In this document: positions 7,145 to 17,451 of the stretch, in pieces
Layout of the letters: every line of letters starts with the position of its first letter
Position numbering within the stretch: the stretch's first letter is position 1
Source of the DNA: Candidatus Baltobacteraceae bacterium
Lineage (GTDB): Bacteria; Vulcanimicrobiota; Vulcanimicrobiia; Vulcanimicrobiales; Vulcanimicrobiaceae
Direction: 5' to 3'
NCBI GenBank assembly: GCA_036559195.1
Contig: DATBTN010000036.1
Coordinates: forward strand, 1 to 45,123
DNA length: 45,123 nt
The notes under the pieces: model-generated
What the model saw: only the letters and a program-made list of their open reading frames with translations
The model's database searches: none
What the model was told of the DNA's origin: nothing
Program-made: the position numbers and the translations under genes

Positions 7145-7972
7145 ATGATCGTCGCGGCCTCGATCGAAGAAGCGCGTGAAGCCGTGCGCGCGTTGCCGCG
7201 TCCGCTCGGCTTCGTACCCACGATGGGGGCTTTGCATGAGGGACACCGCCGGCTGGTAACCGCGGCTCGCGCCGCCTGTGCGAGCGTTGCCGCCTCGGTC
7301 TTCGTCAATCCGCTCCAATTCGGACCGGGCGAAGACTTCGAGCGCTACCCGCGCGATTTGGCGGCCGACCGCGCGATGCTGGAGGCGGCCGGAGTCGCCG
7401 TGCTCTTCGCGCCGGCACCGCAGACGATCTATCCGGCCGGGTTTTCCACCAGCGTCGACGTCGGTCCGATGGGCGCGAGCTTCGAAGGGAAGATCCGCCC
7501 GACGCACTTTCGCGGCGTCGCGACGGTCGTCACCAAGCTGCTGCAAATCATCGAACCCGATGCACTCTACCTCGGCCAGAAAGACGCTCAGCAAACCGCG
7601 GTTCTGCGCCGGGTGGTCCGCGATCTCGCGATTCCCGCGCGGGTCGAGGTGGTGCCGACGGTTCGCGAGGCCGACGGCCTCGCGCTCTCGAGCCGCAACG
7701 TCTATTTAAGCCCCCAGGAGCGCGCGGCCGCGCCCTCCTTACACGCAGCCCTCAACGCGATGCTCGCGGCGTTGCGCGGGGGCGCCACGCCCGCGCAGGC
7801 CCGTTCCACAGGGCTTGCGGCGCTCGACCCGCTCGGCCGCCCGGACTACCTGGAACTCGTCGACGCCGAATCGTTCGAGCGCATCGACCGGCTCGGAGTT
7901 CCGGCATTTTTGATCGCTGCGGCGGCCTTTGGAACGACCCGCCTGCTCGACAACCTGTGGGTGGCGGCGTGA
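7145..7972 (+). CDS. panC: Pantothenate synthetase
   Basis: 275 residues, the normal size. It joins pantoate and beta-alanine with ATP to make pantothenate in the cytosol. Diagnostic motifs are PTMGALHEGHRRLV (class I synthetase HxGH site, about residues 22-35), FVNPLQFGPGEDFERYPRD, FRGVATVVTKL and YLGQKDAQQTAVLRR (ATP and pantoate binding), and LALSSRNVYLSPQERAAA (KMSK-like region). The gene overlaps the next, coaBC, by 4 bp (GTGA), so CoA precursor synthesis is translationally coupled. No panB or panD is in the window. Confidence 0.96.
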   Translation: MIVAASIEEAREAVRALPRPLGFVPTMGALHEGHRRLVTAARAACASVAASVFVNPLQFGPGEDFERYPRDLAADRAMLEAAGVAVLFAPAPQTIYPAGFSTSVDVGPMGASFEGKIRPTHFRGVATVVTKLLQIIEPDALYLGQKDAQQTAVLRRVVRDLAIPARVEVVPTVREADGLALSSRNVYLSPQERAAAPSLHAALNAMLAALRGGATPAQARSTGLAALDPLGRPDYLELVDAESFERIDRLGVPAFLIAAAAFGTTRLLDNLWVAA

Positions 7973-9204
7973 GCGGGTCGCGCGTGCTGCTCTGCGTCAC
8001 CGGCGGGATCGCGGCGTACAAGGCGGCCGCCCTTACCAGCACGCTCGTTCAGCGTGGCGATCTGGTCGACGTGATCATGACCGCCGAAGCCGAGAAATTC
8101 GTCGGGCCGCTGACCTTCGCCGCACTCACCGGACGACCGGTGTACTCGTCGCTTTGGGATGCGCCGGAACGCATTCCGCACATTCGGTTGGTACGTGAGG
8201 CGCAGGTGGCGCTGGTCGCTCCGGCAACGGCCAACGCGATCGCGAAGCTGGCAAACGGCATTGCGGACGATCTGCTCACGACGGCGCTGCTCGCCGCGCG
8301 CATTCCGGTGCTGCTCGCGCCGGCGATGAACGACGCGATGTATCGCAGCGCGCCGACGCAGGCGAATCTCGCGCGCCTGCGCGAACGCGGCTACGCGATC
8401 GTCGAGCCCGAGTCGGGATTTCTCGCGGAACGCGAACGCGGCGTCGGCCGTCTGGCGAGCGAAGAGGCGCTGTTGGAGGCGCTCGATCGCGCGCTCGCGC
8501 GCACGCAATCGATGAGCGGTCTGCGCGTCGCCATTACGGCCGGTCCGACGCGCGAAGCGTTCGACCCCGTGCGCTTCGTGAGCAATCCGTCGACCGGAGC
8601 GATGGGCATCGCGCTCGCGCGCGAAGCGCAGCTTCGCGGAGCCGAGGTTACGCTGATTCTCGGGCCGACGCATTTAGAGCCGCCCGCCAACGTGCGCACC
8701 GTTTCGATCGCAACCGCCGACGAAATGCTCGCCGCGGCGTTGCGCGACGTGGTCGGTGCCGATCTCATTATCGCAAGCGCCGCGGTGTCGGATTACCGGC
8801 CCGCCGAGATCGCATCGCAAAAAGTAAAGAAGGGCGATGCCGGCGAGCGCGTAGAGATGATTCGCACGCCCGACGTGCTGGCGGCGCTCGCCGAACGCAA
8901 AGGCACGAGCTTTCTGGTCGGCTTCGCTGCCGAGACGCAAGCGCACGAAACCAACGCGCGCGAGAAATTGACGCGCAAACGGCTCGACGCAATCGCCGTC
9001 AACGACGTCGCCGGCGGCCGCGGATTCGGCGCCGGCCGCAACGCACTCACGCTCCTCTGGGGAACCGACGGCCGTCGCGATCTCGGCGAAGCCGGCAAAG
9101 ACGAGCTAGCCGCCCGCCTCCTCGACGCAATCGCCGTGCTTCGACAAGCTCATGCTTCGACAGGCTCCGTCCTTCGACAGGCTCAGGATGACAAAGGCTT
9201 GTGA
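7969..9204 (+). CDS. coaBC: Bifunctional phosphopantothenoylcysteine decarboxylase / synthetase
   Basis: 411 residues. The N-terminal CoaC flavoprotein half (about 1-185) shows TGGIAAYKAA, the active-site His in IPHIRLV, PATANAIAKLANGIADD and PAMNDAMYRS (the PxMNxxMW motif with Tyr in place of Trp). The CoaB half shows ITAGPTREAFDPVRFVSN (nucleotide-binding) and KVKKGDAGERVEM with the conserved K-x-K-K. The start is taken as GTG 7969, giving a 4-bp overlap with panC; a GTG at 7957 is also in frame. The last 20 or so residues (from LRQAHAS on) are translated from intergenic repeats, so the native C terminus has been replaced by repeat DNA. It converts 4'-phosphopantothenate to 4'-phosphopantetheine. 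Confidence 0.95.
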   Translation: MSGSRVLLCVTGGIAAYKAAALTSTLVQRGDLVDVIMTAEAEKFVGPLTFAALTGRPVYSSLWDAPERIPHIRLVREAQVALVAPATANAIAKLANGIADDLLTTALLAARIPVLLAPAMNDAMYRSAPTQANLARLRERGYAIVEPESGFLAERERGVGRLASEEALLEALDRALARTQSMSGLRVAITAGPTREAFDPVRFVSNPSTGAMGIALAREAQLRGAEVTLILGPTHLEPPANVRTVSIATADEMLAAALRDVVGADLIIASAAVSDYRPAEIASQKVKKGDAGERVEMIRTPDVLAALAERKGTSFLVGFAAETQAHETNAREKLTRKRLDAIAVNDVAGGRGFGAGRNALTLLWGTDGRRDLGEAGKDELAARLLDAIAVLRQAHASTGSVLRQAQDDKGL

Positions 9205-9271
9205 CCGACCTGACGGGTGCGACTTGTCATGCTGAGCTTGTCGAAGCATGAGCTTGTCGAAGCATGGGCGG
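9136..9271. repeat. Mixed flavour A/B repeats overlapping the coaBC 3' end
   Basis: Reverse flavour-A (GCTTCGACAAGCTCATGCTT), then reverse flavour-B (CCTTCGACAGGCTCAGGATG), then a forward flavour-A copy with a 16-bp tandem duplication (AGCTTGTCGAAGCATG twice). It starts inside coaBC and ends 30 bp before coaX. Confidence 0.85.
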
Positions 9272-9301
9272 GCGGCGTGGCGTGTTAGAGGGGGTGGGTG
9301 A

Positions 9302-10066
9302 ATGCTGTTAGCGATTGATGTTGGGAATACGGAGACGAAGCTCGGGTGCTTTGAGAATGGGGCGGCTGCGCTCACGCACGATTGGCGCGTTACGACGGAG
9401 TCGAAGCGGACGGCCGATGAGTACGGCGTGTTTTTTTCGCAGCTCTTTGCCAGCGCCGGTCGTAAGACGAGCGAGGTGGAGGCGGTCGTGATCGCGAGTG
9501 TCGTTCCGAAGTTGGACGCGACGCTCGAGCAAGCGTGCGAACGGTATTTCGGTGTTGCGCCGGCCTTCTTTAAAGCACATCGCCAGCGGCTCATGCCGGT
9601 CTTGACCGAACGGCCGGGCGAAGTCGGCGCCGATCTGGTGGCCGCCGCAATCGGCGCGCGCGAGATCTACGGGTCGCCGCTCATCGTCGTGAGTTACGGA
9701 ACGGCGACCGTCTTCATGGCGATCTCGCCGAAAGGTGAATACCTCGGCACGGCGATCGCGCCCGGCATCAACATTTCGATCGACGCACTCGTCGGTCGGA
9801 CCGCGAAGCTGCCGCAGATCGCGCTCGAAGCACCCGGCCATGCGATCGGGCGAGACACGATCTCGTCGCTGCAGGCGGGCATCGTTTACGGTTTCGTCGG
9901 GCAAACTGAGGCGCTCGTCACACGAATGCGCGAGGAGATCGGCGTTCCGGCGCGCGTCATCGCCACCGGCGGTCTCGCGGACGCGATCGCCAAACATACG
10001 CACACGATCGACGAGGTCAACCCGCACTTGAGCCTGCTCGGTCTCCATTTGTTTCATCGAAGCTAA
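9302..10066 (+). CDS. coaX: Type III pantothenate kinase
   Basis: 254 residues, standard length for CoaX, which phosphorylates pantothenate with ATP as the first CoA step. The N-terminal phosphate-binding strand MLLAIDVGNTETKLG is intact, as are DEYG, the GxxGAD site (catalytic Asp111), GTAT and the C-terminal VIATGGLA. Two deviations stand out. The family GADR is GADL here, and the Asp of VDFGTATT, which binds the activating monovalent cation in characterised CoaX enzymes, is Ser131 in VVSYGTATVF. The enzyme may therefore differ in K+ dependence. It completes the panC-coaBC-coaX block but is separated from it by repeats. Confidence 0.93.
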   Translation: MLLAIDVGNTETKLGCFENGAAALTHDWRVTTESKRTADEYGVFFSQLFASAGRKTSEVEAVVIASVVPKLDATLEQACERYFGVAPAFFKAHRQRLMPVLTERPGEVGADLVAAAIGAREIYGSPLIVVSYGTATVFMAISPKGEYLGTAIAPGINISIDALVGRTAKLPQIALEAPGHAIGRDTISSLQAGIVYGFVGQTEALVTRMREEIGVPARVIATGGLADAIAKHTHTIDEVNPHLSLLGLHLFHRS

Positions 10067-10127: not shown

Positions 10128-11696
10128 ATGCGGCCACTGCGGGCCTTCTCGGTAGTTGCCCTCTTCGTATGCATGGCCGTGCTTGGCGTACTGCCGGCCT
10201 CCGCACATCCGCTCGGCAATTTTACGATCAATCACTTAGCCAAGATCGCCGTGGCGCGCGACGCGCTGCGCGTGCACTACGTGCTCGATATCGCCGAGAT
10301 CCCGACGTTCCAAATCATGCAAACCGCCGGCGGGAAATGGACGCCGGCCGTTTCGTCGGCCTGGGCGCAGAGCGAGATCGCGCTCGTGCAGCAGGGGCTG
10401 CAGATCTCCGTCGACGGCGCGCGCGCCGCGCTGCAACCCGACGGCCCGGCGCACGTACGCACGCGGCCCGGTTCCGGCGGACTCCCGATTTTGTATTGGA
10501 CCGAAAATTTCGTCGTCCCGGTCGTTACCGGTTCGGCGCATAAGGTCGCCGTCTCCGACAGCACGTATTCGGACCGGCGCATCGGCTGGAAAGATATCGT
10601 CGTCGGCGCGCAGACCGAGCCGACGCAAGAGTTACGCGTCTATCCCAGCGCCCTAATCGGTACGCCGCGACGCGTAACGAGCGCGACGTTTTCGCTGGCA
10701 CCCAGCGGCGCCATTTCGGCGATCGCCGATTCCGAAGACGCGCAGCCGCAGATCGCGAGCAGCGCGCCTTGGCTTTTTAATCCCGCCATTCTCTCGGGCA
10801 TGTTTTCGCGCCAAAATCAGACGCCGGTATGGGTATTGCTGACGATCTTGGCGGCGTTCGGCCTGGGCGCGCTGCACGCGGTCGAGCCGGGACACGGGAA
10901 AGCGCTGCTCGCTTTCACGCTCGTTGGGTCGCGCGCCACGTCGAAGCAAGCCTTGATTCTGGCCGCATCGCTGACGTTCGCGCACACCGTCGGCGTGCTG
11001 ATCCTCGGACTGCTCTTGCTCACCGCATCGAAGTTCGTTTCGGAGACGGTCTATCCGTGGATCACGCTGCTTTCGGGCGTCGCGGTTGCGGTGATCGGCG
11101 CGCGTGCGCTGGCGAAGTATATCGCGGCGCGGCGCGGGCTCAATCACGTTCACCAGCACGCTCACGATGGCGCGCATCCGCACGCGCACGGCCACGATCA
11201 CGATCGCGACCACGATAGCGCGCACGGCCACGGACACTCGCACGGGATTCCCGGCTCGCAGCCGCTCAATTTCGGCAGCGCAATCTGGGCGGCGATGAGC
11301 GGCGGTATCGCGCCGTGTCCCGCTGCGATCGTGGTCATGCTCACGGCATTGCGCCTGCATCAATTGGGGTACGGCCTGCTGCTCATCGTCGTCTTCAGCA
11401 TGGGGCTCGCCGCGGTGCTTAGCGGACTCGGCATCGGCGTGGTGCACGGCGCGTCGTGGCTCTCCAAGCGTTCGGGCTTCGAGCGGATCGTAAGGATCGG
11501 GCCGGTCGTTTCGGCGAGCGTCATCTCCGTCATCGGCGCGGTCATGGTCGGGCAAGGGTTCGTTCAGACCGGTTTTGCATCGTCGGCGGCGATCGTTGCG
11601 CTGCTCGTCATCGCGGCCGTCGCCGGCTACGCGTTCGCGCAGCAGGGGCACGGCCATCACCATCATGCGGCGCCCGCGCCCGAGGTGACGGCATGA
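10128..11696 (+). CDS. NicO/RcnA-type Ni/Co transporter with N-terminal periplasmic domain and His-rich loop
   Basis: 522 residues. A signal peptide (1-27, ending PASAHPLGNFT) leads into a periplasmic beta domain of about 200 residues that begins HPLGNFTINHLAKI, seen in one subgroup of NicO proteins. The membrane part starts near 230 with the NicO motif LGALHAVEPGHGKALLAF. A long cytosolic loop at about 338-375 contains more than a dozen His in His-Asp/Ala-Gly repeats. The second half holds SGGIAPCPAAIVVML. NicO proteins move nickel or cobalt, usually outward. The ATG at 10128 follows a clear GGGAGGG. The stop overlaps the NiCoT gene (ATGA). It heads the DUF4331 operon. Confidence 0.9.
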   Translation: MRPLRAFSVVALFVCMAVLGVLPASAHPLGNFTINHLAKIAVARDALRVHYVLDIAEIPTFQIMQTAGGKWTPAVSSAWAQSEIALVQQGLQISVDGARAALQPDGPAHVRTRPGSGGLPILYWTENFVVPVVTGSAHKVAVSDSTYSDRRIGWKDIVVGAQTEPTQELRVYPSALIGTPRRVTSATFSLAPSGAISAIADSEDAQPQIASSAPWLFNPAILSGMFSRQNQTPVWVLLTILAAFGLGALHAVEPGHGKALLAFTLVGSRATSKQALILAASLTFAHTVGVLILGLLLLTASKFVSETVYPWITLLSGVAVAVIGARALAKYIAARRGLNHVHQHAHDGAHPHAHGHDHDRDHDSAHGHGHSHGIPGSQPLNFGSAIWAAMSGGIAPCPAAIVVMLTALRLHQLGYGLLLIVVFSMGLAAVLSGLGIGVVHGASWLSKRSGFERIVRIGPVVSASVISVIGAVMVGQGFVQTGFASSAAIVALLVIAAVAGYAFAQQGHGHHHHAAPAPEVTA

Positions 11697-12493
11697 TTTT
11701 TTCGAGCGCCGCCACCGTCTTCACACTGGGTTTGCGTCACGGCGCCGATCCCGATCACCTCGCGGCGATCGATAACCTCACCCGCAATTCCGTCGAGCGA
11801 CAACCGCTGTTCAGCCGCTTTATAGGCACGCTCTTCGCGGGCGGCCACACCGTGATGGTGCTCGCCATCGCGGCGCTCGTCGGATTTCTCGGCACAAAAT
11901 TTTCCGCGAACCACGCGCTGATCGAAACGGTCGGAACGTGGATCAGCATCGTCGTGTTGCTGGTCATCGCGGGGATGAACCTGCGCCAATTGCGCAGCGG
12001 ACAAACCGACCGGATTGCGGGCGCCAAAACGCGTCTGCTGCCGACCGCCCTACGCAACGGTACGAGTGCGTGGCTGGCCGTTCCGGTCGGATTGCTTTTC
12101 GGTTTCGGTTTTGAAACATCGAGTCAGATCGCGACGTACGCAGTGGCGTTCGGTGCGGACGCCGGCGTTGCCGGGGCGCTCGTCGTCGGCTCGATGTTTT
12201 GTGCCGGCATGGTCTGTACCGATACGCTCGACTCGGTGATGATTCACCGGCTCGTGACGTATCGCGCGGGTCGTCTTCCGCGCGTCATGCGTGTGTGGAT
12301 TCTCTCCGTGACTATCTTCGCCGTCGCGGTTGCGGCGTACGAGCTCGTTCAAGTGCTCGGCTGGAAACCGCCAATTTCGGACTTAACGGTCAGTAGCATC
12401 CTCGTAGCCGGACTGCTGGGCGTCTTCGTCTGGATCTTCCTGTCGACGCGGCCAATGCGCCTCGTCGACACACCAATGGAGCAGCTACCATGA
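11693..12493 (+). CDS. NiCoT-like Ni2+/Co2+ transporter
   Basis: 266 residues with about seven membrane spans. LGLRHGADPDHLAAIDNLTR at about 12-31 corresponds to the NiCoT signature R-H-A-x-D-A-D-H in helix II, with Gly and Pro substitutions; LFAGGHTVMVL and LFGFGFETSSQIATY match the later conserved motifs. Classical NiCoT proteins import Ni or Co at high affinity. Here the gene is coupled on both sides by 4-bp overlaps (NicO upstream, DUF4331 downstream). A presumed exporter and a presumed importer in one transcript is unusual, and a specialised role of both with the DUF4331 proteins is possible. Metal specificity cannot be read from sequence. Confidence 0.88.
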   Translation: MIFSSAATVFTLGLRHGADPDHLAAIDNLTRNSVERQPLFSRFIGTLFAGGHTVMVLAIAALVGFLGTKFSANHALIETVGTWISIVVLLVIAGMNLRQLRSGQTDRIAGAKTRLLPTALRNGTSAWLAVPVGLLFGFGFETSSQIATYAVAFGADAGVAGALVVGSMFCAGMVCTDTLDSVMIHRLVTYRAGRLPRVMRVWILSVTIFAVAVAAYELVQVLGWKPPISDLTVSSILVAGLLGVFVWIFLSTRPMRLVDTPMEQLP

Positions 12494-13296
12494 AACTCAT
12501 CCGCGGAATCGCCGGTGTGTTCGCGGTTCTACTGTTGGCCGTAGCGATGTCGTTCTATTCGACACACGCTGCCCGCAGTTCGGACCACCAAGACTCGCCG
12601 ACGGTCGTTAACAATCCGATGGAAGACGTCACCGACTCGTACGTCTTTCCAGCACCGGACAAACCGGGTAACGTCGTCTTCGTAATGGACTTCTGCCCGC
12701 TCATTCCGGTCGGCTGCAATTCGCAATTCGATCCGAACGTACTCTACCAGTTCAAGATCGCCAACGTCGCGGGCGATCCCAAAGAGCATCTGGTCATTCA
12801 GATGAAGGCTAATAGTGCCGGCGCGAACCCAACGTTCACGCTCTACGGGCCATCGGCGCCGAACGAAGTCAGCACCCAAAATACGCTCGTCGCGTCGAGC
12901 GGTACCTTCGGCTTGAGCCAAAATGCCACGTTGAGCAACGGCGTCTCGGTCTTCGTCGGACCGCGGCACGACCCGTTCTTCTTCGATTTGGCGAAGTTCT
13001 TCAAGATTCTCCCGGATCGCAACTACAAGAACCAGCCCAACCCACCGCCCGGTACGGCGAGTTCGTTCAACTTCACCGATCCCAACGCGCCGGTGAAAGA
13101 CGTGCTCGGCAATTCGTACGGCAACGCCGGAGCGCTCGGCTGCGACGTTCCGGGATCGCCGAACTACAGCGCGCCGAACGATTTGCTCACGCCGTATAAC
13201 GTGATGTCGCTCGTCGTGTCGGTCCCCAAAGCCATGCTCGGCACGGCCGGCAAAATGGGCTTCTGGGTAACAGCCTCGACGCCGTCGGGATCATAG
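12490..13296 (+). CDS. DUF4331 protein, N-terminal half only (exported)
   Basis: 268 residues with a signal peptide (MKLIRGIAGVFAVLLLAVAM) and then SSDHQDSPTVVNNP, the hallmark start of DUF4331 proteins. It also carries SYVFPAPDKPGNVVFVMD, VFVGPRHDPFFFDLAKFFKI and LPDRNYKN, each with close counterparts in the full-length paralogue at 15317. It stops after the region equivalent to residues 1-240 of that paralogue; the missing C-terminal half is encoded by the next gene. DUF4331 proteins are secreted and of unknown function. The ATG overlaps the NiCoT stop by 4 bp. Confidence 0.9.
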   Translation: MKLIRGIAGVFAVLLLAVAMSFYSTHAARSSDHQDSPTVVNNPMEDVTDSYVFPAPDKPGNVVFVMDFCPLIPVGCNSQFDPNVLYQFKIANVAGDPKEHLVIQMKANSAGANPTFTLYGPSAPNEVSTQNTLVASSGTFGLSQNATLSNGVSVFVGPRHDPFFFDLAKFFKILPDRNYKNQPNPPPGTASSFNFTDPNAPVKDVLGNSYGNAGALGCDVPGSPNYSAPNDLLTPYNVMSLVVSVPKAMLGTAGKMGFWVTASTPSGS

Positions 13297-13308
13297 GGAG
13301 ATACGTAC

Positions 13309-13887
13309 ATGAAGAAACTATTGACCGGCGCCGCCGTAGCGGCAATGCTCGGCCTGGCGTTAACCGGCTGCAACGGAAACGGCCCACGCGTGCTCGGCAC
13401 ACCGACCTCGGGCAACAACACCGTCTACACGCAGACCGAACTCTTCGCCCGCCCCGCGGTTAAAGAAGGCCTCGAGATGTTCAAGGATCACGACGCGACC
13501 AATCGCGGCGAACCCTACAGCGATACGACCTTGACCAACGACATCGGCACCTTCGCCTCCACCGTTGCCAAGCGCGACGCGGCGACGACCGGTGCCCTGC
13601 AGAAGATCCTCGGACTCGACGAGATGATGTTCGATACGTCCTCGGCAGCCACGACCGCAGCCTATCTCGGCGTCGAGAGCGGCGGCGCGACGGGCAGTAC
13701 GTTCGGCGGCCGCGCGCTTAACGACGACGTGATCGACCTCGATCTGGGAGCCGTGTTCGGGAACACGCTCTCCTTGCTCAAGGTCGTCCCGGACGACCAT
13801 AAAGAGTCGCCCTGTTTGACGACCGATAACGTCGGATACGATAAGGCTAATACCGCCACGTTCCCCTACGTTCAACCGCCCGTCTAA
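13309..13887 (+). CDS. DUF4331 protein, C-terminal half as a separate lipoprotein
   Basis: 192 residues. It has its own lipoprotein signal (MKKLLTGAAVAAMLGLALTG-C, lipobox LTGC, Cys21), then a body matching the C-terminal half of the full-length paralogue: NTVYTQTELFARPAVKEGLE, DHDATNRGEPY, DVIDLDLGAVFG and VPDDHKESPCLTTDNVG. It lies 12 bp after the N-terminal-half gene with GGGAGA before its ATG. This is therefore a two-gene version of a protein that is one gene at 15317, and the second half has gained membrane anchoring. It is not a simple frameshift, because a real signal peptide and lipobox begin it. The two halves presumably assemble outside the cytoplasm. Confidence 0.9.
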   Translation: MKKLLTGAAVAAMLGLALTGCNGNGPRVLGTPTSGNNTVYTQTELFARPAVKEGLEMFKDHDATNRGEPYSDTTLTNDIGTFASTVAKRDAATTGALQKILGLDEMMFDTSSAATTAAYLGVESGGATGSTFGGRALNDDVIDLDLGAVFGNTLSLLKVVPDDHKESPCLTTDNVGYDKANTATFPYVQPPV

Positions 13888-13905
13888 CCACCGAAGGAAC
13901 TACAG

Positions 13906-15234
13906 GTGCGCCTCAGAGGCTCATTGGTCATCACGGCGGGCGCGATTCTCGCGCTCGCCGTCTGGCCGACCGTCATCGCGCTTCGCTCGCAGGCTCCGGC
14001 CGCGATCGTCGCGCCGGTGCCCGTCAATACCGACTACCTGCAGCGCGACAAAGTCATCTCGTTCGAAGAGCGGATCGTGCGTCGCGACCCGCAGGATCAG
14101 ATTACCTCGCGCATGCTCGCGCTCCAATATCTGCAGCGGTTTCGCGAGCAGGGCGACGTGGGCGATATCGAGCGCGCGCAAGCGATGGCCGAGCGTTCGA
14201 TCCGCCTTCAGCCGCAAGGCAACACCGCCGGACAGATGGGGCTCGCCTCGGCGCTGCTCGACTATCATAAGTTTCGCGCGGCCATCGGACACGAACAGGA
14301 CGCGATCGACGGCGAACCGTTCAATCAGAACGCGATCGCGCAAAAAGCGTCACTGCTCATGGAGCTGGGGCACTATCGCGATGCCGGCCGCATTCTCGCA
14401 CGCACGCCGCCGGGTCCCGAGAACCCGACCTGGGAGTCGATTCAGGCGCGCTACGACGAATTGACTGGCCGCATGAACGAGGCGCGCGCGCTGATCGCCC
14501 GTGCGGAGCGGCGCGTCGATCAAAATTATTACGAACCCGCCTACGATCGCTCGTGGTATCACATGCGCGGCGCCCAGCTCGCGTTTGAAACCGGCGACAA
14601 CGCCGCCGCCGAAAAAGAATTCGCGACCTCGCTCGCGCTGTTTCCGAATAATTACATGGCCCTGCTCTGGGAAGCGCGCTACTACCGCTCGCGCAAAGAG
14701 TGGCAGAAGTCGCTGGATGCGGCAACCAAAGGCGCGAATCTTTATCCGCTCCCGCAGTTGCTTGGCTACAAGGCCGACGCGCAGCGCGGACTGGGCGATA
14801 CGAAGGGTGCGGCGCAGACCGACGCGCTGATCCGCGCGGAGCAGCGCCTGTTTAACGTTCAGGGAATCAACGACCGGCTGCTCGCCAACTACTACGCTCA
14901 ACGCCGCATCTACCTTGGCGACGCCGTTCGCTTTGCGAAACTGGACTACCGACAGCGCGGCGACGAGATCTATTCGGACGACACCATGGGTTGGGTGCTG
15001 GCCACGACCGGAAAGTGGGCCGAGGCCCGCACCTACGCCGAGCGTGCCGTCCGTTTCAATACGCAGGACGCCGACGTACAGTACCATGCCGGGATCGTCG
15101 CGATGCACACCGGCCACGCCGCCGAGGCGAAGCGACGGCTCGAGTACGCCCTCAAACTCAATCCGCAATTCGACCCGTTCGACGCCGCCGACGCGCGCGC
15201 GCAGTTAGCAAAACGTTCGATGGCGTCTCGCTAA
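13906..15234 (+). CDS. Tetratricopeptide-repeat protein, membrane-anchored or exported
   Basis: 442 residues from GTG 13906 (GAAGGA upstream). An N-terminal hydrophobic segment (about 5-26) acts as a signal or anchor. The rest is made of helical pairs of TPR type: NTAGQMGLASALLDYHKF, QKASLLMELGHYRDAGRIL, HMRGAQLAFETGDNAAAEKE, YHAGIVAMHTGHAAEAKRR. TPR arrays bind partner proteins; its position between two DUF4331 genes suggests that it scaffolds their export or assembly. No catalytic domain is visible. Confidence 0.88.
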   Translation: MRLRGSLVITAGAILALAVWPTVIALRSQAPAAIVAPVPVNTDYLQRDKVISFEERIVRRDPQDQITSRMLALQYLQRFREQGDVGDIERAQAMAERSIRLQPQGNTAGQMGLASALLDYHKFRAAIGHEQDAIDGEPFNQNAIAQKASLLMELGHYRDAGRILARTPPGPENPTWESIQARYDELTGRMNEARALIARAERRVDQNYYEPAYDRSWYHMRGAQLAFETGDNAAAEKEFATSLALFPNNYMALLWEARYYRSRKEWQKSLDAATKGANLYPLPQLLGYKADAQRGLGDTKGAAQTDALIRAEQRLFNVQGINDRLLANYYAQRRIYLGDAVRFAKLDYRQRGDEIYSDDTMGWVLATTGKWAEARTYAERAVRFNTQDADVQYHAGIVAMHTGHAAEAKRRLEYALKLNPQFDPFDAADARAQLAKRSMASR

Positions 15235-15316
15235 AAAAGAATCCGGCGGGGCCGCCCGAGCGTTGACGGATATTCACTCCGCTTCGCACACGAAGCACTT
15301 TCGGGAGGGCTCCCTC

Positions 15317-16588
15317 GTGAAACGGCTCGCAGCCATTCTCTTATCGGCGTTTGCGATCGTGGCGCTGGCCATTACCGCGACGCTCTACACGGCTCCAAAA
15401 GCAACCAGCTCGGACCATCAAGACTCACCGCTGACGGTGAGCCGGCCCGGTGCCGATATTACCGACGTCTTCGTTTTCCCCGCCGCCAACCCGCACAACG
15501 TAGTCTTGGCGATGGACGTTCATCCGCTCATTCCACGAGGCATGTCCGGCGGCGTCGCATTCGATCCTGCCGTCATGTACCAGCTCAAGATCGACACGAC
15601 CGGCGATTTTAGAGAAGACAAGGTCATCCAGTTCCGCGCCGTCGGCGAGGGAACCGGACAACGTCTGGAAATGTACGGGCCAGTCGCGCCCGCAATGCAG
15701 GGGACTCGCTCGCGCTGGGTGGGACCGGCGGCCACGTTCTCGTTTAACCGGCGCAAGAGCTTTAGTAACGGCGTGCAAGTTTTTGCCGGACCGCGCAAGG
15801 ATCCGTTCTACTTCGATCTCGCGCAGTTCTTCAAAATTATCCCCGACCGCAATTACAAGAATCATCCTAACGTGCCCGCGCCGAGCGCGAAGTGCTTCCG
15901 CAATCCCGGCGTGGATTTCTTGAAGGACTACAACGTTCTCTCGTTCGTGGTCGAAGTTCCGCGCATTCTGCTCGCTAACCCGAAGGGCCGCGTCGGCGTC
16001 GTGCGCGTTTATGCGACGACGTCGCTCGCCAGCGGCAACAGCACCTACACGCAGGTCGAGCGTCTTGGGCGCCCGGCGATCAAGGAAGCCTTCGAAGCGT
16101 TTGGACGCCACGACACGACCAATCGCAGCGCACCGTGGGCCGATCCGTATCTCGGCAAGGACATTCTCTCGTTTATGACCTCGCCGAAGGGCGCCGGCCG
16201 CTCCATGCAACTTGGCAAGGCCGTGGAAAAAGTCCTGATCCCCGACGAACTAGCCGCCGATCTCTCGCAGGCCGGACCGGCTCGTTACCTCGCGGTTGAA
16301 ACCAACGGCAAGAGCGCTCTGCCGACCGGCATCGTCCGCGTCGTACCCGAAGCCGCACTCGGCGGCTTGAAGAAGGCGATCGGCGATCCGTACCGCCACT
16401 TCGGCGGCCGCGATCCGTCGAGTCCGGTCATCGATCTCTCGCTCGGCGTGATCTTCGGCACGCTCGGCCAGAAAGTTGGCCTCGCACCCGACGATCACAA
16501 AGACACCGCGTGCCTCACGAGCGATAACGTCACGGCCGGCGATCGCGGAACGACCGATACGTTCCCGTATATCGGCAAACCGATCTAA
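15317..16588 (+). CDS. DUF4331 protein, full length (exported)
   Basis: 423 residues. GTG 15317 is chosen because GGGAGGG lies seven bases upstream and it gives a clean signal peptide (MKRLAAILLSAFAIVALAI); a TTG at 15263 is less likely. The mature part opens with SSDHQDSPLTVSRPGADITD and includes VFAGPRKDPFYFDLAQFFKI, PDRNYKNHPNVP, STYTQVERLGRPAIKEAFEA and the ending PDDHKDTACLTSDNV. It combines in one chain what the two genes at 12490 and 13309 encode separately. Role unknown; envelope location inferred from the signal peptide. Confidence 0.92.
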   Translation: MKRLAAILLSAFAIVALAITATLYTAPKATSSDHQDSPLTVSRPGADITDVFVFPAANPHNVVLAMDVHPLIPRGMSGGVAFDPAVMYQLKIDTTGDFREDKVIQFRAVGEGTGQRLEMYGPVAPAMQGTRSRWVGPAATFSFNRRKSFSNGVQVFAGPRKDPFYFDLAQFFKIIPDRNYKNHPNVPAPSAKCFRNPGVDFLKDYNVLSFVVEVPRILLANPKGRVGVVRVYATTSLASGNSTYTQVERLGRPAIKEAFEAFGRHDTTNRSAPWADPYLGKDILSFMTSPKGAGRSMQLGKAVEKVLIPDELAADLSQAGPARYLAVETNGKSALPTGIVRVVPEAALGGLKKAIGDPYRHFGGRDPSSPVIDLSLGVIFGTLGQKVGLAPDDHKDTACLTSDNVTAGDRGTTDTFPYIGKPI

Positions 16589-16816: not shown

Positions 16817-16953
16817 AAAGACGTAAGACGAAACGGTGCGCGGGGACGTGTGGATTGCACGCCTGCGCGCGCGGTATGCAGGTAAAGCAAGCAGGCTTTA
16901 GACCGTTCTCAGCATTGGTTAATCATACGGTGCCCGGGTACAGTATTGCTCGT

Positions 16954-17451
16954 ATGGTAGAGCTGGGTGCTTTCGACGAGTTATACGCGACGTATCGATC
17001 GCTCGTCTTTGGCGTGGCTCTGCGCGTGCTGCGCAGTTCGATCGAGGCCGAGGACGTCGTGCAGATCATTTTTTTGAAGGCCTGGATGCACCCCGAGTCG
17101 TTTCGCGGCGGCAATATCGAGAGTTGGCTGACGACGCTTGCGAAAAATTGCTCGATCGACGTGCTGCGGAAACGCCGCCACGAACTCGCGGCCCTACCGA
17201 TGGAGTCGCTGCGCCTTTCCGCATCGTCGAACGATACCGAACAAGATGCGCTCGCCACCCTGCGCGCGAGCGCGGTTCGCGAAGCGCTGCGCTCGCTGCG
17301 CGTCGATCAGCGCGACGTCGTGGTGGCCTGTTTTTTGGATGGACAATCGCACGAACACATCGCGCGGGCGACGGCATTGCCGCTGGGTACGGTCAAGACG
17401 CGAATTCGCAGCGGCCTGCGGCATCTGCGCCGCCAGGCTACGAACTTATAG
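16954..17451 (+). CDS. ECF-type RNA polymerase sigma factor
   Basis: 165 residues from ATG 16954. Region 2 is visible at about 10-80 (LYATYRSLVFGVALRVLRSS, then EAEDVVQIIFLKAW and a W-L-T-T-L-AKN-C-x-IDVLRKRRH motif). Region 4 is at about 108-160 with ALRSLRVDQRDVVVACFLDG and the helix-turn-helix HIARATALPLGTVKTRIR. Start choice is uncertain; upstream in-frame starts exist to 16855. No transmembrane anti-sigma gene follows, which is unusual for an ECF gene. A STAS gene lies just downstream on the other strand. Confidence 0.9.
   Translation: MVELGAFDELYATYRSLVFGVALRVLRSSIEAEDVVQIIFLKAWMHPESFRGGNIESWLTTLAKNCSIDVLRKRRHELAALPMESLRLSASSNDTEQDALATLRASAVREALRSLRVDQRDVVVACFLDGQSHEHIARATALPLGTVKTRIRSGLRHLRRQATNL

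Follow-up and report, generated by a model that had tools for sequence, protein, structure and literature searches.

A widely conserved DUF4331-TPR-Ni/Co transporter gene set, encoded in Vulcanimicrobiota by an operon with a split DUF4331 protein, as a candidate extracytoplasmic metal-capture system

Introduction

The window analyzed in this study is a 45,123-base contig (DATBTN010000036.1) of a 2.48-Mb genome in 80 contigs, of which the closest named relatives belong to Vulcanimicrobiota (Candidatus Eremiobacterota). At positions 10128-16588, six genes encode two NicO-family transporters, three products of the DUF4331 family (PF14224) and a tetratricopeptide repeat (TPR) protein. The combination of DUF4331, TPR protein and nickel/cobalt (Ni/Co)-type transporter is a real, widely conserved gene set. 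We propose, with a probability of roughly one in two, that its products form an extracytoplasmic system of several components that captures a metal, most likely Ni(II)/Co(II) and possibly Cu(II). In the proposed mechanism, the exported DUF4331 protein would bind the metal via its free N-terminus, NH2-Ser-Asp-His, which is of the amino-terminal Cu(II)/Ni(II)-binding (ATCUN) type, and would hand it to the N-terminal histidine (His1) of an anglerase-like domain on the NicO permease. This permease and a second, NiCoT-type transporter would carry the metal over the inner membrane, and the TPR protein may act as a scaffold. Where DUF4331 is split over two genes, the lipidated C-terminal half (C-half) would tether the N-terminal half (N-half) to a membrane by completing its fold.

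Results and Discussion

Gene layout and recurrence of the gene set

The six genes run in one direction on the + strand and encode, in order, NicO, the NiCoT-type NicO transporter, the N-half of DUF4331, its C-half, the TPR protein and a full-length DUF4331. ATGA overlaps at 11693 and 12490 link genes 1-3, and the gaps after gene 3 are 12, 18 and 82 bp. This layout is present exactly as described in an earlier interpretation made from the letters of the window (the sequence-only reading), which took the six genes for one functional unit. The genes panC, coaBC and coaX (type III pantothenate kinase) at 7145-10066 lie on the same strand only 61 bp upstream, so tight packing alone proves little, and the six genes might be unrelated and packed together by chance. 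The pan/coa genes, however, are not kept beside the operon in relatives, whereas the same partners recur over phyla, and chance packing is extremely improbable.

DUF4331 was found in 29 of 60 related genomes. The usual order in the fetched loci of relatives is NicO-NiCoT-DUF4331N-DUF4331C-TPR, and in most related loci an orthologue of the TPR gene adjoins DUF4331. Scanning GTDB genomes yielded 78 named loci. In cyanobacteria, a single-gene DUF4331, TPR and NicO follow each other in that order in all 30 loci with enough flanking sequence. The genome search of Vulcanimicrobiota placed a TPR gene within 2 kb of DUF4331 in 28/36 cases and a Ni/Co-type transporter gene within 4 kb in 26/36, and in Armatimonadota a TPR gene was near DUF4331 in 7/7; some genomes are in both collections, and these locus counts are not independent. 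DUF4331 accompanied by TPR and/or a Ni/Co-type transporter was detected in Vulcanimicrobiota, Armatimonadota, Abditibacteriota, Gemmatimonadota, Actinomycetota and Pseudomonadota, the transporters being of the NicO, NiCoT, HupE/UreJ and CbiMQO families. The order DUF4331-TPR-HupE/UreJ-2 occurs on plasmid records of Pseudoalteromonas, Lichenicola, Marinobacter and one Comamonadaceae; HupE/UreJ-2 (PF13795) fills the transporter slot at loci L095, L184 and L164 and, by annotation, at L185 and L189. DUF4331-TPR-NicO is carried by plasmid records of Streptomyces and Nostoc and, by profile, also of Embleya and Nonomuraea, and DUF4331-TPR pairs were found on those of Miltoncostaea and Adhaeribacter.

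Linkage was also observed from the side of the transporter. All nine plasmid records matching the N-terminal domain (N-domain) of this NicO carry DUF4331 within about 3 kb, a count not biased by the choice of loci. In the fetched loci, NicO genes of the same type, with HPLGN at the predicted mature N-terminus, were linked to DUF4331 in 80 of 84 cases, a value biased upward as many of these loci had been chosen for DUF4331. Over the 60 related genomes, the co-occurrence counts of DUF4331 and this NicO were 25/4/1/30 (p = 1.3e-11, uncorrected for phylogeny). The neighbourhood survey for NicO and TPR partners that the sequence-only reading had called for was thus positive for most secreted DUF4331 proteins, and its proposal of one functional unit agrees with the recurrence of the same partners and order in many relatives. 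As it had further supposed, no description of the system was found in the literature searched.

In an Armatimonadota locus (L170:10765-13495), DUF4331 and TPR are directly followed by a CbiM-CbiQ fusion and CbiO. A Gemmatimonadota locus (L173:11938-14154) has a TonB-dependent receptor gene downstream of TPR and the split DUF4331 pair. At L084 (G043:C9), NicO-NiCoT-TPR occurs without DUF4331 between the genes, and this genome has its split pair on a separate contig (L068). L055 (G044:C2) and L075 (G004:C39), from genomes of different families, appear to hold the same operon copy judging from gene lengths and profile scores; this likeness apparently reflects a recent transfer or mis-binned metagenome contigs.

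The N-terminus of DUF4331

All three DUF4331 products exceed the PF14224 gathering score of 27 bits, and they are the only DUF4331 matches in a profile search of the genome. The N-half gene (12490..13296, + strand; 106.3 bits, profile 1-240) encodes a signal peptide followed by a predicted mature Ser-Asp-His (codons 12580-12588). The full-length gene (15317..16588, + strand; 153 bits) has a GTG start in an open reading frame (ORF) open from 15263, and the cleavage rule again predicts a mature Ser-Asp-His (codons 15410-15418) after its signal peptide.

Ser-X-His was invariant among 15 highly divergent DUF4331 proteins. With the (-3,-1) rule applied at each offset, signal-peptidase cleavage was predicted directly before the Ser of this motif in 110 of 112 secreted proteins, compared with at most 47% at the other offsets within 8 residues. 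The expected mature N-termini are Ser-Asp-His (98), Ser-Ser-His (12) and Ser-Asn-His (2). In a wide alignment, Ser and His stood at 93%, because the His is missing from one clade of second-copy N-halves. The short DUF4331 proteins without a signal peptide (L097, L180, L181, L182, L191, L192, L193, L179, L057, L060 and L059) begin with Met-[Ser/Ala]-X-His in all 11 cases, with GTG as the start codon in one; two of their genes (L057 and L097) adjoin NiCoT genes. If the Met preceding Ser or Ala is removed, these cytosolic-type proteins would likewise present NH2-X-X-His, which defines the ATCUN motif for Cu(II)/Ni(II) (PMC12509749). Both secreted and cytosolic-type DUF4331 proteins would therefore expose an ATCUN N-terminus, as Ser-[Asp/Ser/Asn]-His in the former and Ser/Ala-X-His in the latter, if the ends are as predicted. 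What sets DUF4331 apart from other ATCUN cases is that exposure of the motif would be built into an entire protein family.

AlphaFold2 modelled the full-length protein with a predicted local distance difference test (pLDDT) value of 92.5 and a predicted template modeling score (pTM) of 0.92, but with low confidence at the N-terminal residues. No significant match of the predicted fold was found in the PDB (best E 5.2e-3, probability ≤0.47) or in BFVD, and no significant relative by sequence was found in the PDB. Matches to CBM9-like domains and to the ethylbenzene dehydrogenase gamma subunit were too weak and were disregarded. PF14224 has no assigned function, and no mention of DUF4331 or PF14224 was found in the open-licence papers searched.

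DUF4331 might instead be a secreted or surface metalloenzyme, or a surface-layer protein, with the N-terminal motif in an active site and the transporters supplying or recovering the metal. In Rhodobacterales, on plasmids of Paracoccus, Sulfitobacter and Jannaschia (L186, L187 and L190), DUF4331 is embedded in a cluster of type II secretion genes (A24 peptidase, GspK, GspJ and others). This cluster may be dedicated to DUF4331, and the arrangement, a hint that the protein is released to the surface of the cell or beyond it, would suit such an enzyme, as would the copies that stand alone. The further conserved acidic residues of DUF4331 (D47, D50, D162, D276 and D393) could build an internal site. 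However, no enzyme fold was matched in the PDB comparison above, and the protein of L179 starts with MADH; Ser1 is accordingly not strictly needed, which argues against a Ser1 nucleophile. We consider an enzyme or surface-layer role clearly unlikely.

The NicO permease and its N-terminal domain

The first gene (10128..11696, + strand) encodes a NicO-family permease (PF03824, 38 bits, residues 238-475). Its signal peptide (10128-10205) has a predicted cleavage site between ASA and HPLGN, and by the cleavage rule an extracytoplasmic N-domain starting at His1 (10206-10808) precedes the transmembrane part. A His-rich loop is encoded at 11142..11245 and is probably cytoplasmic if the N-domain is outside, a topology obtained by counting hydrophobic segments. 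The (-3,-1) rule placed the cleavage directly before the His of HPLGN in 69 of 69 NicO proteins with a readable N-terminus, and His1, D28 and E31 were invariant over 39 N-domains.

No Pfam family and no PDB relative by sequence were found for the N-domain. When its model (pLDDT 88.5, pTM 0.84) was compared with the PDB by Foldseek, the only match with E <0.001 was 9GCE, in which the Ang-1 domain from a HupE/UreJ-2 protein has Cu bound (E 2.2e-4, probability 1.00, template modeling [TM] score 0.43/0.51, 11% identity). Ang-1 and Ang-2 define the anglerase-permeases, in which they are fused to HupE/UreJ-2 (Nat Commun 2025, PMC12537917). Ang-1 binds Cu (Kd 74 nM) and Ni (220 nM) via His1, and capture of the metal and its feeding into the permease have been proposed; the main text of that paper mentions neither DUF4331 nor TPR nor NicO (PMC12537917). 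The NicO protein shares with the anglerase-permeases a signal peptide, a predicted N-terminal His1, an extracytoplasmic beta-sandwich of the Ang-1 fold according to our model, and a Ni-type permease. It differs in that the permease part is NicO (PF03824) instead of HupE/UreJ-2 (PF13795) and in that sequence similarity between the N-domains is undetectable. Thus, this NicO looks like an anglerase-permease and is not classed as one. Proteobacterial DUF4331 loci do carry PF13795, and most HupE partners in DUF4331 loci also have His as the first residue after the signal peptide. Within the metal-capture domain of HupE and of some NicO partners (A5; L165, L162 and cyanobacterial loci), an EF-hand-like loop (e.g. 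LDADGNGAITWGE) was noticed.

These N-terminal motifs and the anglerase-like predicted fold point to a metal, in line with the probable handling of a metal at the envelope suggested by the sequence-only reading. That reading had called NicO an exporter. The NicO family was confirmed; "exporter" is a family name only. If NicO were an RcnA-like exporter, the system would serve efflux or detoxification, with DUF4331 and TPR buffering or removing excess Ni/Co in the envelope. The best NCBIfam model of the protein is indeed the RcnA-type nickel/cobalt efflux transporter (NF007454), and the NicO superfamily, the HxxEPGHGK motif (HAxEPGHGK in this protein) and the His-rich loop are shared with RcnA. 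The score of 115.1 bits is, however, under the curated cut-off of 195, and RcnA has neither the extra extracytoplasmic N-domain of about 200 aa nor the linkage to DUF4331 and TPR. A stress response is suggested by nearby genes for extracytoplasmic function (ECF) sigma factors. One lies downstream in the window (16921..17451, + strand; Sigma70_r2 and r4_2; start uncertain, ORF open from 16855) and is possibly the regulator of the operon, and others are near the operon in several relatives and at Pseudoalteromonas and Streptomyces loci. On the other hand, the N-domain fold and His1 resemble the capture domains of proposed uptake permeases (PMC12537917), HupE/UreJ-2 or CbiMQO fills the transporter slot in other phyla, and a NiCoT-type gene is within the same operon. 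Import is therefore favoured, and efflux appears rather unlikely.

The split DUF4331 protein

The C-half gene (13309..13887, + strand; PF14224, 52.6 bits) has its own lipoprotein signal with the lipobox LTGC (13360-13371). The two halves constitute one domain, because they match PF14224 at profile positions 1-240 and 248-421, respectively; the profile search takes them as a single 496-aa frame with one TAG. This TAG, the stop codon of the N-half, is part of the C-half's ribosome-binding site, TAGGGAG (13294..13300, + strand). The three secreted DUF4331 products of the sequence-only reading all match the family, but two are halves of one domain, the second with a lipoprotein signal.

Related loci contain 68 adjacent pairs of N-half and C-half genes, and 57 of these are distinct; such pairs are present in Vulcanimicrobiota, Armatimonadota, Abditibacteriota and Gemmatimonadota. 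The relative frames of the halves in the distinct pairs were distributed 20/20/17 over the three frames, so the split is neither a sequencing error nor stop-codon readthrough, both of which are also ruled out by the C-half's own signal peptide. The split is real. A lipobox signal was recognized by pattern in 56 of the 57 C-halves, and SAGC is visible by eye in the remaining one. The N-halves end with TAG (38) or TAA (19) and never with TGA, probably because the stop is often part of the ribosome-binding site that serves the following gene (TAGGAG, TAAGGAG). An altered genetic code was rejected as the cause, since TGA terminates neighbouring genes.

In the full-length AlphaFold2 model, the split position is in the loop that connects strands 201-211 and 217-223. 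Therefore, the lipidated C-half would supply one strand and the helical part, and the two halves would pair with each other. A tree of the N-region (57 split and 56 full-length rows) needs five changes between the split and full-length states, at least two of which are forced by well supported branches. No description of a split into a secreted N-half and a lipoprotein C-half was found in the literature searched. A group of mostly second-copy N-halves lacks the conserved His and has FDI, FNV and similar sequences in its place (L155, L148, L158, L174, L077, L056, L073, L074, L080 and L044), which suggests that this group has changed its role.

The gene behind the C-half (13906..15234, + strand) encodes the TPR protein, with an N-terminal hydrophobic segment and TPR_2, TPR_19 and TPR_16 above cut-off.

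The second transporter and the metal

The second gene (11693..12493, + strand), which shares an ATGA with the preceding gene, encodes a NiCoT-type NicO transporter (PF03824, 73 bits). In common with the NiCoT permeases (HoxN/NixA/NicT), it has the HX4DH signature, present as HGADPDH, and PF03824. It differs from them in scoring below the cut-offs of TIGR00802 (86 bits against 333) and, again by a wide margin, NicT, and in its position in this operon instead of in a nickel-enzyme cluster. The sequence-only reading had found no nickel enzyme nearby; this is right locally, but a [NiFe]-hydrogenase large subunit is encoded elsewhere in the genome (G000:C57). Urease was not found. Since all linked transporters are of Ni/Co families and this hydrogenase is present, Ni or Co is the favoured metal.

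Copper could take the place of nickel or cobalt in an otherwise identical system. ATCUN and His1 sites mostly favour Cu(II). Ang-1 holds Cu tighter than Ni, and Ang-2 binds Cu as well (PMC12537917). Against copper stand the Ni/Co families of every linked transporter and a mildly positive co-occurrence with hydrogenase over the related genomes (p = 0.014, uncorrected). We consider copper as the metal quite unlikely.

Points against metal capture

Several results weigh against the proposed metal-capture system. The window and 23 related loci yielded neither a NiCo nor a cobalamin riboswitch; the sole Rfam match there was one tRNA. The cleavage sites come from the (-3,-1) rule and not from a trained predictor. 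The likeness of the NicO N-domain to Ang-1 is one of predicted fold, with the modest TM scores and identity given above, and sequence profiles of the NicO and HupE N-domains show no link (hhalign probability 7%). The second-copy N-half clade has lost the His of the motif. Finally, DUF4331 genes without transporter or TPR neighbours, which the sequence-only reading had named as a refutation, do exist. They were seen only among the cytosolic-type genes, most of which have no such partners, some full-length paralogues of Vulcanimicrobiota and several Rhodobacterales copies, the latter two kinds standing by themselves or within a cluster of type II secretion genes.

Implications

Taken across phyla, the gene set may be an acquisition machine in which the ATCUN tip of exported or surface-released DUF4331 feeds Ni/Co (or Cu) to the His1 domain on NicO/HupE, with TPR as a scaffold and with split DUF4331 anchored in some phyla; we put this wider picture forward tentatively, leaning slightly to the doubtful side. 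The split DUF4331 is a clear case of a protein conserved in two pieces, the second of which has its own lipoprotein signal. If the proposed metal capture is true, DUF4331, a widespread domain of unknown function, would gain a testable function, and the anglerase idea of 2025 would reach NicO permeases beyond HupE/UreJ-2, with dedicated partner proteins. As the module is present in cyanobacteria such as Nostoc, it would be testable where genetics is established.

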